Below the pieces are notes generated by a model. The model was not told the DNA's origin, did not search any database, and saw only the letters and a list, made by a program, of their open reading frames with translations. A DNA stretch of 25,107 bases from Victivallales bacterium (GTDB lineage: Bacteria > Verrucomicrobiota > Lentisphaeria > Victivallales > UBA1829), in assembly GCA_016285335.1 (NCBI GenBank), contig JAEEQO010000013.1:1-25107 (forward strand), in the 5' to 3' direction. A program made the translations under genes and the position numbers. Shown here piece by piece: positions 4,517 to 16,559 of the stretch (the stretch's first letter is position 1; each line of letters starts with the position of its first letter).

Positions 4517-5182
4517 TCAGTCCTCGTACACGGTCGGGTCGGGGAGTCCGGCCTCGCGGAACGCGTCTTTGCGTTCGCGGCAGGTACCGCATTTGCCGCA
4601 ATGCCTGTCGCGGCCGTTGTAGCAGCTCCAGGTGAGGGAGTAATCCACGCCGAGTTCGGCCCCGAGCGCGGCGATCTGCCCCTTCGTCATGCGGCAGAAC
4701 GGCGACAGGAGTTTCACTTTTCCGCCGGTCCCGGCGTCGATCGCCTGTGCCATGCCGTCGATGAATTCCGGGCGGCAGTCCGGATAGATCGCGTGGTCGC
4801 CGCTGTGGTTGCCGAGGATGACGGCGGAGCAGCCGGAATCCTCCGCGAGTCCGGCCGCGGCGGCGAGCATGATGCCGTTGCGGAACGGCACGACGGTCGA
4901 CGCCATGTTGGATTCGTTGTATGCGCCTTCCGGGATCGCGCCGCCCGATTTGAGCAGGGACGAGTGAAAATACTTGCCAATGAATCCGAGCGGGATCTCG
5001 AGGCGGGGGATATTGAGCTTGCGGCAGATCGCGTCCGCCGCGGCAAGTTCGCGCGCGTTGTGCTTGGCGCCGTAGGAAAACGATACGGCGGAGACGGTCT
5101 CGAATTCCCGTATCGCCCACCACAGTGCGGTAGAGCTGTCCATGCCGCCGGAAAAAACGACGAGCGCGTGTTCCTGCTTCAT
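4517..5182 (-). CDS. queC: 7-cyano-7-deazaguanine (preQ0) synthase
   Basis: This ATP-dependent enzyme turns 7-carboxy-7-deazaguanine into preQ0, using ammonia. It is 221 residues. The PP-loop ATP-binding motif SGGMDS is at residues 11-16, FSYGAKHNARE and ILGNHSGDHAIYPDCRPEF are family segments, and the C-terminal zinc site is formed by Cys187, Cys195, Cys198 and Cys201 (SC...HCGKCGTC). The ATG is well placed 18 bases after the stop of the acyltransferase gene. With queE and folE it supplies three of the four steps from GTP to preQ0. queD (6-carboxytetrahydropterin synthase) and queF are not in this window. Confidence 0.96.
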   Translation of the reverse strand: MKQEHALVVFSGGMDSSTALWWAIREFETVSAVSFSYGAKHNARELAAADAICRKLNIPRLEIPLGFIGKYFHSSLLKSGGAIPEGAYNESNMASTVVPFRNGIMLAAAAGLAEDSGCSAVILGNHSGDHAIYPDCRPEFIDGMAQAIDAGTGGKVKLLSPFCRMTKGQIAALGAELGVDYSLTWSCYNGRDRHCGKCGTCRERKDAFREAGLPDPTVYED

Positions 5183-13673: not shown

Positions 13674-15572
13674 TTATTCCAAAGCTTTTTTCCTAAATTC
13701 TTTTTCTGCTTTTTCAAGCCACTTCAAAGCTTCACGAAGATTTTTAGGTACTCCAATGCCATACAAGTATCGCTCATGAAGATCATTCATGGCATCAATG
13801 TTACCACCGTCAGCGGCTTTTCGATACCACTTCATTGCTTCACTAGTGTTTCCTCTTAGATCATAGAATATCGCAAGATTGTATTGGGCTACATTATCCC
13901 CCTGATTGGCCGCTTTCCGATACCATTTCATAGCCTCTGTATTGTTTTTTTCAAGGCCATATTTCCCATCTGCGTAGGAAGTCCCTAAAACAGTCTGTGC
14001 CTCCACATTACCTGCTTCAGCAGCCTTGAGAAGCCATATTATGGCTTCATCTTCATCCTTACCTAACCCGAAAGTTCCATTTGCTCGAATCAGAAATGCA
14101 TTCCACTGTGATGCAACGTCTCCCTCTCTTGCTTTTAAAAACAACTTACATGTTAATATTTTGTCTACCCTTGAATTTAATCCTAATTCTCCAGACTTCT
14201 GATACCATTCCAACGCCTTAGAAAAGTCTTGTCGTTCTCCATCATTATAGTACAGATCTCCCAAGTGGATTTGTGCTTCTGGATGGTTTTGCATAGCTGC
14301 CTTTTGAAACCAAAAGAAAGCTTCTTCTTCTCGAGGGTTAACTCCTATTCCCGCCAAATAACATAAACCTAATCTAAATTGTGCCTCAAGATTATCTTGT
14401 TCTGCTGCTTTCCGAAACCATTTTACCGCTTCATCACTATCTCTTTTTATACCGTCTCCATTGTAATAGCATATTCCCAACAAAAGCTGTGCTTGGGCGT
14501 AACCTTGCTCTGCCCCTTTTTGAAAAAACTTGACAGCATCTTCATAACGATGTTCATTAATTGCTTTACTCCCCTTACTGTAATTGATTTCACCCATTGT
14601 TTTCTGATATTCAAGTTGAGCTTTTGCATGCCCAAGCTCTTCAGCTTTTTGAAAGAAACCAACAGCGTCTTCATAGCGATGTTCATTATATGCTTTCAGA
14701 CCTTTTTCATAGTTGATTTCTCCCAGTGTTTTTTTTCGTTCGAGTTGAGCTTTTGCATGCCCAAGCTCTTCAGCTTTTTGAAAGAAACCAACAGCATCTT
14801 CATAGCAATGTTCATTATATGCTTTCAGACCTTTTTCATAGTTGATTTCTCCCAGTGTTTTTTTATGTTCGAGTTGAGCTTTTGAATGTCCAAGCTTCGC
14901 AGCCTTCTGAAAAAGATTAGACGCATCTTCATAACGATGTTCATCATATGCTTTTCTGCCTTTGTCATAGGTTATTTCAGACTTTGCTTTATTCAATTCT
15001 GCTTCAGTTTCTTGGCGTCCTTGTTCAAGCGCTTTTTGAAAGAAAGCAACAGCTTCTTCATATTTTTTTTCGTTGAATGCTTTTTTCCCTTTTTCATAAT
15101 CTATTTCTGCCAATGTTTTTTTGTATTCAATTTGGGCCTTTACATGTCCCTTTTCTGTTGCTTTTTGAAAATACACAATGGCATCTTCATAGCGGTGCTC
15201 GTTGTACGCTTCCAAACCTCTTTTATAATCTTTTCCCGGGATGCTTTTTATATAGTTGAAGCCGCATAATGAAATCAAGACAACAATAAACACTGCGGAC
15301 AAAACAACAATGCTCCGAGCTATTATCTTTTTTTTGTGCTCGGAATTGCCTGCTTTGGTTTCCTCTTGTCCGCGTGAATCAATGTGATTACAGCTTTTTA
15401 TTTGATGGACGAAATGATTACTCGGTGAACTTTGGGGTATTGGAGCGATCTTTTGGGGGCTCCGAAGTGTAAATTTCTTCTCACAAACTGAACACTCGAC
15501 ATTTTGCCCGACAAGCGAATCGTCGACAGAATACTCCTGATTGCACCAAGGGCATTCAACCTTGATTTCCAT
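13674..15572 (-). CDS. Zinc-ribbon membrane protein with TPR/Sel1-like repeats
   Basis: The protein has 632 residues and its function is not recognised. Residues 7-30 form a zinc ribbon (CPWC at 7-10, CSVC at 27-30) of the kind found at the start of many PVC and delta-proteobacterial membrane proteins. A linker leads to KKKIIARS and a single membrane helix (about 83-103), so the ribbon should be cytoplasmic and the rest outside. Six repeats of 43 residues begin at Tyr116, 159, 202, 245, 288 and 331 (YEKGLKAYNEHRYEDAV pattern). From about 360 to the end classical Sel1 repeats follow (AQLLLGICYYNGDGI, AVKWFRKAAEQ, TVLGTSYADGKYG). Such solenoids usually mediate protein-protein contacts. AGGAGG lies 7 bases before the ATG. 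The gene is markedly AT-richer than its neighbours and is bracketed by inverted dispersed repeats, suggesting acquisition. Confidence 0.85.
   Translation of the reverse strand: MEIKVECPWCNQEYSVDDSLVGQNVECSVCEKKFTLRSPQKIAPIPQSSPSNHFVHQIKSCNHIDSRGQEETKAGNSEHKKKIIARSIVVLSAVFIVVLISLCGFNYIKSIPGKDYKRGLEAYNEHRYEDAIVYFQKATEKGHVKAQIEYKKTLAEIDYEKGKKAFNEKKYEEAVAFFQKALEQGRQETEAELNKAKSEITYDKGRKAYDEHRYEDASNLFQKAAKLGHSKAQLEHKKTLGEINYEKGLKAYNEHCYEDAVGFFQKAEELGHAKAQLERKKTLGEINYEKGLKAYNEHRYEDAVGFFQKAEELGHAKAQLEYQKTMGEINYSKGSKAINEHRYEDAVKFFQKGAEQGYAQAQLLLGICYYNGDGIKRDSDEAVKWFRKAAEQDNLEAQFRLGLCYLAGIGVNPREEEAFFWFQKAAMQNHPEAQIHLGDLYYNDGERQDFSKALEWYQKSGELGLNSRVDKILTCKLFLKAREGDVASQWNAFLIRANGTFGLGKDEDEAIIWLLKAAEAGNVEAQTVLGTSYADGKYGLEKNNTEAMKWYRKAANQGDNVAQYNLAIFYDLRGNTSEAMKWYRKAADGGNIDAMNDLHERYLYGIGVPKNLREALKWLEKAEKEFRKKALE
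14454..15227 (-). repeat. Six 129-bp tandem repeats inside the Sel1-like gene
   Basis: The 43-codon protein repeats correspond to 129-bp DNA units beginning at 15227, 15098, 14969, 14840, 14711 and 14582 (minus strand). The units starting at 14840 and 14711 are almost identical in DNA, including synonymous positions, which points to recent duplication or gene conversion. The outer units have diverged. Confidence 0.85.
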
Positions 15573-15652
15573 AGCCCGACCTCCTGATATTTTGTTTGTT
15601 TATTCTGAACTAAAAAGCAAAAGCTACGCAAAGGAGGCCGGTATGCAGGCAC

Positions 15653-15673
15653 AAAAAAAGCCGGACGCTTCCC
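15653..15673 (-). terminator. Terminator ending the candidate ncRNA
   Basis: The 3' arm of the closing stem and CCGGC are followed by seven T residues on the minus strand (15659-15653). It also fits a shorter hairpin GGTCGGAC/GTCCGGCT (15698-15691, 15666-15659, two wobbles). It lies 80 bases upstream of the Sel1-like ATG, so it would limit readthrough into that gene. Confidence 0.65.
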
Positions 15674-15883
15674 CATGCGTGTACACGAGGGTCCGACCAA
15701 GAACCCGATCCCGAGACGACAGAGAAACGCCCAGCAGAAACGGAGACACAATGCTCCTGCTGGTATTTCGTGTTCGGGATCAAAAGATTTGTTGTAAACT
15801 TGGTCGGTTTTCGTGTACTTTTGATTGAAATACGGCTGAAATGAGCTTGAAACCGGCTTTCCGTTGGTCAGAAAAGCGATTCC
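15653..15883 (-). ncRNA. Candidate structured non-coding RNA of about 230 nt, unknown class
   Basis: The stretch has a promoter 7 bases before its start, a T-tract at its end, and nested perfect complementary arms in between. Stem A joins the RNA ends: GGA plus CGCTTTTC (15883-15871) pair with GGGAAGCG plus TCC (15673-15663), with two wobbles. Stem B is GTACACGA/TCGTGTAC (15818-15811, 15688-15681). Stem C is CCGACCAAG/CTTGGTCGG (15807-15799, 15701-15693). Stem D is GATCCCGA/TCGGGATC (15781-15774, 15714-15707). Stem E is CCAGCAG/CTGCTGG (15763-15757, 15737-15731). An alternative stem, AAAGCCGG/CCGGCTTT (15860-15853, 15664-15657), would compete with A at the terminator. The long rod with closed ends and asymmetric bubbles recalls 6S RNA in outline, but no 6S consensus was recognised. 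It could also act as a leader of the Sel1-like gene, whose ATG is 80 bases on. Confidence 0.6.
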
Positions 15884-15890
15884 AAAAATC

Positions 15891-15918
15891 AATTTACACC
15901 CTGTAACGTGAAAGTCAA
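15891..15918 (-). promoter_or_regulatory. Promoter of the candidate ncRNA
   Basis: TTGACT (15918-15913), a 16-base spacer and TAAATT (15896-15891) on the minus strand. The predicted start coincides with the first base of the closing stem at about 15883. Confidence 0.6.
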
Positions 15919-15983
15919 GACGTTTTTCCGGCTTTTTCAGACAAAATATGAGGTTGATGAAAATTTGGACGCTTTTGCGTCCC

Positions 15984-16056
15984 GCTTCGCTGGGGGCGGC
16001 GTTGCCGCCTCGGTAAGCTCGCCGACGCTCGCACTTTTTTCTGACCGCGAGGCGCG
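15984..16056 (+). repeat. Dispersed 75-bp hairpin repeat, copy b
   Basis: It begins GCTTCGCTGGGGGCGGC and contains GCCGCC, CGGTAAGCTCG and GCTCGCACTTTTTTC, ending GCGAGGCGCG. The GGCGGC/GCCGCC hairpin is intact; the second stem is altered (CTCGCCGACGCTCG). After it lies a diverged piece of the TTGCAAC motif also found at 16193-16330. Confidence 0.85.
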
Positions 16057-16113
16057 ATTGTAAATACTTTCAGAAAAGTTGCAACAGAAATGTAAATGGC
16101 ATGCGTATGTGAC

Positions 16114-16187
16114 GCTTCGCTAGGGGCGGCTGCGCCGCCTCGGTAAGCTCGCTTACGCTCGCACTTTTTTCTGACCACAAGACGCGC
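16114..16187 (+). repeat. Dispersed 75-bp hairpin repeat, copy c
   Basis: Same layout as copy b with GCTTCGCTAGGGGCGGC, GCCGCC, intact GTAAGC/GCTTAC arms and GCTCGCACTTTTTTC, ending in CACAAGACGCGC. The change inside GGCGGCTGCGCCGCC keeps the pairing, so the hairpin is preserved while the loop differs from copy b. Confidence 0.85.
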
Positions 16188-16352: not shown

Positions 16353-16429
16353 GCTTCGCTGGGGGGCGGCTGCGCCGCCTCGGTAAGCTCGCTTGCGCTC
16401 GCACTTTTTTATCTGATTGCGAGGCGCGC
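16353..16429 (+). repeat. Dispersed 75-bp hairpin repeat, copy d
   Basis: It begins GCTTCGCTGGGGGGCGGC with one extra G, then GCCGCC, CGGTAAGCTCGCTTGCGCTC and GCACTTTTTT, ending GCGAGGCGCGC. The T-run after the GC-rich stems could terminate plus-strand transcription. Confidence 0.85.
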
Positions 16430-16559
16430 AAGCAAAGCTTAAAGGAAAGCAAAAGCTAACGTCAGGTTTTACGTTTATCGAATAGCAGGCTTAGGGGGGT
16501 GTCAGGCGTTTGGCTTTAGTCATTTATTTGGAAAGTGGAGTTTTTTCTCCTTCCCGCAT

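Follow-up and report, generated by a model that had tools for sequence, protein, structure and literature searches.

The window, by which we mean the whole 25,107 nt stretch of DNA analysed, carries on its minus strand the gene for a Sel1-like protein and, in the position of a 5' leader to it, an element of around 240 nt composed of a promoter-like sequence, a variable 5' hairpin, a knotted core and a U-tract. The features of the locus, in ascending order of coordinates, are:

13674..15572, minus strand: downstream gene with a GC content of 0.39 (whole window, 0.59), whose 632 aa product has a zinc ribbon and Sel1/TPR repeats
15653..15698, minus strand: predicted alternative intrinsic terminator, made of the PB2 3' strand, the 3' end GUCCGGC and the U-tract
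15682..15689, minus strand: helix PB1, 3' strand (covariation)
15690..15692, minus strand: PX, RCC strand (covariation)
15693..15701, minus strand: helix PB2, 3' strand CUUGGUCGG, which also supplies the greater part of the alternative terminator's 5' arm
15703..15705, minus strand: PX, the second pseudoknot, GGY strand (mutual-information rank 18)
15707..15715, minus strand: helix PC with its extension, 3' strand (covariation)
15731..15739, minus strand: helix PD, 3' strand (covariation, 91 copies)
15755..15763, minus strand: helix PD, 5' strand (covariation, 91 copies)
15773..15781, minus strand: helix PC with its extension, 5' strand (covariation; the extension overlaps PA)
15779..15786, minus strand: pseudoknot helix PA, 3' strand CUUUUGAU (covariation)
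15799..15807, minus strand: helix PB2, 5' strand CCGACCAAG (mutual-information ranks 11, 16 and 21; 97.8% paired)
15810..15817, minus strand: helix PB1, 5' strand (mutual-information ranks 1-3, 5, 10, 12 and 13)
15818..15825, minus strand: pseudoknot helix PA, 5' strand AUCAAAAG, pairing with 15779-15786
15849..15883, minus strand: 5' hairpin P1 of the predicted fold, variable in sequence
15891..15918, minus strand: predicted sigma70-type promoter TTGACT-N16-TAAATT (9/12 match)

The minus strand between 15653 and 15883 has a predicted folding energy of -85.1 kcal/mol (z -5.68), and none of 200 dinucleotide shuffles was equally stable. The nested stems that a preliminary description had reported on this strand are present: they include a 9 bp inverted repeat, CCGACCAAG/CTTGGTCGG, at 15799-15807 and 15693-15701, the further stems TACACG/CGTGTA, TCCCGA/TCGGGA and CCAGCA/TGCTGG, and a hairpin at the 5' end of the predicted fold. 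The same description took TTGACT-N16-TAAATT and a T7 tract as the bounds of the element, and both can be retained, as the former is the sole promoter-like site in 15500-16000 (mean of 0.4 in shuffled sequence) and seven T residues close the element. The scan for promoters and terminators, which had a loop limit of 8, did not place the T7 site on its list of terminators. It did reveal a perfect hairpin, GGACGCAAAAGCGTCC, upstream of the promoter at 15967-15982 on the minus strand. Also upstream of the RNA is a GC-rich dispersed repeat with the pattern CTTCGCT..GGGGCGGC..GCCGCC..GCTCGCxxACGCTCGC, found at 15983-16056, 16113-16186 and approximately 16353-16430; similar repeats lie upstream of other copies of the RNA, and also in L006.

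A covariance model (A1) was made from 32 of 37 copies, the remaining five being partial or divergent. At an E value of 0.01 this matched 29 of the 36 genomes of the family, with between one and eight matches in each positive genome, so that several copies per genome are common. The model was positive in 75 of 137 genomes of the order (E 0.01) and 78 of 197 of the class (E 0.001), and a wider model in 62 of 387 genomes of the phylum (E 1e-4), all of these searches having stricter filters that lose weak matches. Judged by the numbering of the genomes, the sole positive outside the class was G417, at 4e-5. Searches of phages, plasmids and E. coli genomes gave no match, and neither did a search of viral contigs with a single exact pattern. 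Within the limits of this sampling, the RNA appears to be essentially confined to the class Lentisphaeria. Ninety-one copies were used for further analysis, comprising 80 hand-picked from the search lists, ten from a blastn list and that of the window, each fetched with its flanks; the window copy and 50 from its closest genomes are referred to as near, and the other 40 as distant. A promoter-like match is present in 84 of the 91, corresponding to 48 of the 51 near and 36 of the 40 distant copies, relative to shuffle means of 8.6 and 10.3 respectively.

Alignment of the 91 copies supports a structure of 52 pairs with two pseudoknots, in which 95.4% of pairs are standard. There are 812 cells in which both partners have changed, against 237 in shuffles and at most 176 when the partners are slid along the alignment; these compensatory changes across homologous copies bear out the suggestion that the segment specifies a structured RNA. 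The alignment was fitted to a model holding most of the 52 pairs, but neither PA nor PX. Ranking of column pairs by mutual information, with no structure given, put all of the top 21 within PB1, PB2, PC, PD and PX, when PB1 and PC are counted with their extensions. Double changes occur at all eight pairs of PB1, which is 97.6% paired, whilst PX is formed by GGY and RCC motifs on either side of the PB2 3' strand, its covarying pair being U-A in 75 copies and C-G in 13. A strand test comparing G-U with A-C cells gave 157 to 24 overall, with 141 of the G-U cells outside PA, PB and PC; within these helices it is uninformative, as the counts there are 16 to 19.

PA is the weaker part of the structure: its pairs are 91.2% standard in one stretch and 74.9% in the other, and the outermost of them is present in 58 of 90 copies. 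Among 32 near copies, 49 pairs including PA are 96.9% standard and have 197 double-change cells, compared with 61.5 in shuffled alignments and no more than 27 with partners slid; PA alone contributes 12, against 2.4 shuffled. Its compensatory changes include G-C to U-A, A-U to G-C and G-C to A-U, the outer pairs being the less well supported. The hairpin P1 is statistically weak (median z of -1.1 in 49 near copies, eight of which are below -2), and RNAalifold gave no consensus for it among near copies. On the evidence of these alignments, it is close to certain that the element is a real, conserved structured RNA.

Searches with the covariance models of Rfam release 15 found no match in the window at the gathering score, and at E values up to 10 there were three hits in 15550-16000, all far under the gathering score. 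In seven loci containing other copies, the only matches were to a tRNA and a SAM riboswitch, neither of them on the element. Hence the search, which included 6S RNA, agrees with the initial assignment to an unknown class. A SAM-I/IV riboswitch match barely above its gathering score lies at 4834-4945 of locus L182, around 1.1 kb from an RNA copy.

6S RNA is rod-like, with a conserved closing stem and a central bubble, and usually has one or few copies per genome. The element shares with it a similar length and strong folding, and was originally likened to such rod-like RNAs on account of an outermost stem said to join the 5' and 3' ends. The 11 bp repeat concerned, at 15655-15665 and 15927-15937, is real; however, its outer arm is 5' of the -35 box, and so outside the predicted transcript. 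The window is alone among the 91 copies in having the 11-base match, ten others having one of nine bases, and the outermost stem is thus not supported. The minimum-energy fold is closed by a stem between the linker and the 3' end, which is no better than with shuffled linkers and exhibits no fit specific to its own copy. That the element is a divergent housekeeping RNA of the 6S type, as might be proposed from its being a discrete, strongly folded unit of around 230 nt, therefore seems very improbable: it has a pseudoknotted core with no conserved outer rod, is present in up to eight copies per positive genome, is tied to downstream genes and, in 15550-16000, has no 6S match even at an E value of 10. 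The Rfam 6S model detects nothing in the 36 genomes of the family, leaving the role unfilled as far as the model sees, but this silence says little, as it matched just five of 14 control genomes.

The preliminary description also noted an alternative stem overlapping the terminator, and this is upheld by the comparison of copies. When the segment is folded alone, 66 of 91 copies adopt a register in which the PB2 3' strand pairs with the conserved 3' end, forming a stem immediately ahead of the U-tract; in the window, where the 3' strand of PB1 also takes part in the alternative terminator, the segment has an energy of -21.8 kcal/mol. Taken over all copies, its stability is unremarkable, with a median z of -0.52 and 22 of 91 copies below -2, compared with -2.95 for the window. 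Variation in PB2 makes one of the seven terminator pairs non-standard in 42 of 90 copies. The strands of the core and of the predicted terminator thus overlap, making it plausible but not proven that the two structures compete as in an attenuator.

Many copies have, beyond the U-tract, a downstream arm complementary to the 3' end of the RNA (median z -1.9, with 17 of 91 below -3). A permutation test, performed with two alignments of 20 copies each chosen by eye (A3 and A4), was repeated on the 40 distant copies and on 50 of the 51 near copies. In the distant set the 3' ends fit their own arms better than permuted ones, with none of 2,000 permutations, and none of 5,000 once near-duplicates were removed, doing as well. 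The equivalent fit in the near set is weak, as 48 of 2,000 permutations were as low, or 94 of 5,000 in the absence of near-duplicates, and the window copy ranks 39 of 50, giving no support to its own downstream arm. Where the fit to the own copy holds, the arm is most simply explained as part of the same transcript. Two other elements were observed past the U-tract. One, conserved and with the form GCTGGATTTCGCAGC...GTGGAATC, directly follows it in L182, L191, L194, L197, L202 and L216, which are from distant genomes; the other, GAGGCC...CAATGC...GCCGG/CCGGC, is found in around 20 near copies.

The first downstream gene of at least 90 aa is on the same strand as the RNA in 84 of 87 copies, at a median distance of 184 bases. 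The exceptions are L195, where an ORF overlaps the RNA and a same-strand glycosyltransferase gene lies behind it; L252, a transposase fragment identified through Pfam; and L226, a 107 aa ORF with no Pfam match. Shared strand alone is not rare, since 192 of 247 neighbouring gene pairs in these loci have it. The nearest upstream genes are mixed, 51 being on the same strand and 32 on the opposite one. The gene downstream is the more AT-rich of the two in 71 of 79 pairs, with a mean GC content of 0.447 compared with 0.565 upstream. All of these genes were predicted with a home-made gene caller trained partly on the same loci. The run of same-strand genes downstream, within the flanks fetched, is of one to three genes in 75 of 91 copies.

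The 87 downstream proteins fall into 54 clusters (blastp, E 1e-6), 53 of which were scanned against Pfam, mostly through a single representative; models of defence proteins were used in addition. The largest, with 12 members, has AIDA adhesin repeats in the three members scanned, and the next, with 11, has Sel1 repeats, likewise in three. Others include glycosyltransferases, restriction enzymes (GmrSD, Mrr, Eco57I and PD-(D/E)XK), caspase-LRR and trypsin-like proteins, a permease and a NusG-like protein, whilst many representatives have no Pfam match. No shared pathway is obvious among them.

The preliminary description left it undecided whether the RNA was free-standing or a leader, and the data now favour the second. 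Free-standing RNAs acting in trans, in which case every copy would have a promoter and a terminator to itself and the gene after it a separate promoter, would account for the discrete unit running from promoter to U-tract, its presence in up to eight copies per genome, the movement of RNA alleles between gene contexts and the low conservation of the sequence directly after the U-tract in the first 37 copies. Such an arrangement seems unlikely, however, in view of the consistent strand of the downstream genes set against the mixed upstream ones, and of the co-fit, among distant copies, between the 3' end and the downstream arm of the same copy. A switch within a leader is the most likely function, because the RNA is nearly always found just ahead of a same-strand and usually AT-rich accessory gene.

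The RNA also appears to have changed partners. A tree of 49 of the 51 near copies requires 24 changes of downstream gene family, compared with a shuffled mean of 28.4 (three of 200 shuffles were as low); coevolution of RNA and gene family was therefore rejected, there being slight clustering at most. The same tree splits genomes widely, requiring 36 changes. In L227 and L236, which are from two genomes, the 3' portions of the leaders and the starts of the genes are near-identical, with different RNA alleles ahead of them. Together with the tree, this suggests that conversion or transfer exchanges the RNA between genes as a module.

This raises the question of whether the promoter and RNA are part of a mobile DNA unit that inserted before captured genes. 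The EF-Ts encoded in the window shares 97-99% identity with that of seven genomes (L001-L007), to which alignments of over 400 bases are limited to rpsB-tsf; the RNA is absent from that place, downstream of tsf, in all seven, each of which has it elsewhere (blastn of 278 bases, best E <=3e-35 in each). These absences, the differing alleles of L227 and L236 and the proximity of several copies to contig ends would be expected of such a unit. However, the flanks beyond the promoter and U-tract are generally not shared among 37 copies, transposase-like ORFs among those examined downstream are just that of L252 and, by eye, one in L096, and the phage, plasmid and single-pattern viral contig searches were empty. 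The covariation, too, implies selection on the fold of the RNA. We regard this explanation as improbable, and on the basis of the differing flanks and empty searches the narrower proposal of a transposon end or MITE was rejected. The RNA copies of L190, L191, L194 and L197 lie a few hundred bases from contig ends, suggesting that repeats adjoin them.

Given these observations, the best reading of the element is that it represents a new RNA class with no match in Rfam, acting as a promoter-proximal leader. It is probably the 5' leader of the Sel1-like gene, attenuating or antiterminating downstream transcription, and as such would constitute a new cis-acting class in the Lentisphaeria. While RNA polymerase moves away from the promoter, the emerging transcript would fold into the core formed by PB1, PB2, PC, PD, PA and PX, sequestering the 3' strands of PB2 and PB1, which could otherwise partner the conserved 3' end in the terminator. 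A signal favouring the core, which might be a small molecule, a protein or the polymerase itself, would then permit read-through into the acquired AT-rich gene, whereas in its absence transcription would stop at the U-tract, releasing an RNA of around 230 nt.

Riboswitches and attenuators that control transcription are similar in being promoter-proximal, with a pseudoknotted core, a predicted overlap with a terminator and a gene on the same strand. The element differs from riboswitches in preceding 54 clusters of proteins with no common pathway seen, and in its lack of an Rfam match; a ligand-type metabolite riboswitch would be odd where the genes have no obvious pathway in common. Type III toxin-antitoxin (ToxI) loci likewise have a promoter, a pseudoknotted RNA, a terminator and then an AT-rich gene on the same strand, but here there is no single toxin family among the clusters behind the RNA. 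The literature search, which covered papers other than preprints and supplements, found none describing this RNA, although it may be present without a name in large lists of candidates; searching PMC8040213 by term returned nothing.

A special case of a leader, with no ligand switch and odds that overlap those of the leader in general, is processive antitermination, whereby the RNA would bind RNA polymerase and cause distant terminators to be ignored. Put, EAR and conAn2 are described as RNA antitermination systems (PMC8955417, PMC9378689). Like put of phage HK022, EAR of the Bacillus eps operon and conAn2 of pLS20, the element would be a cis-acting RNA near the start of accessory or hard-to-express transcripts, and one copy precedes NusG-like genes. 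Its location where transcripts are predicted to begin, ahead of AT-rich accessory genes for adhesins, glycosyltransferases, restriction enzymes and the like, also recalls the targets of RfaH, a factor of this type being needed for adhesins and polysaccharides (PMC7593976). On the other hand, it is far larger than the HK022 put RNA, given as around 70 nt in PMC9378689, it matches no Rfam family, and the same-strand runs downstream are short. This mode of action is a doubtful, if conceivable, one.

More speculatively, a single knotted RNA module, alone or with a common signal, may let RNA polymerase pass termination before dozens of unrelated AT-rich acquired genes across the class, serving as an RNA counterpart of RfaH and ops; we advance this tentatively. 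To our knowledge, control of acquired-gene expression by one signal has so far mainly been attributed to proteins such as RfaH, and gene regulation in the class Lentisphaeria has been little studied. A large RNA class with two pseudoknots and strong support is now added to this class, and its occurrence before 54 clusters of accessory genes makes control of acquired genes by a single RNA testable. Were the RNA to act as such a licence for foreign genes, it would be a class-wide equivalent of RfaH and ops with alleles exchanged as modules.

The targets of RfaH/ops and LoaP are likewise xenogene-like, including adhesins, glycan synthesis and AT-rich genes, but in the present case it is a large RNA that is conserved, and NusG paralogues do not track it: most RNA-bearing genomes have one NusG match and some none. 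A specialised NusG partner was rejected on these counts, which also weigh against processive antitermination. Among the first downstream genes scanned, the NusG-like protein is found only at L113 (G005:C1:184765-187081), where two NusG-like genes, at 185392 and 186860, lie behind the RNA, in an arrangement reminiscent of the specialised NusG proteins encoded within operons.
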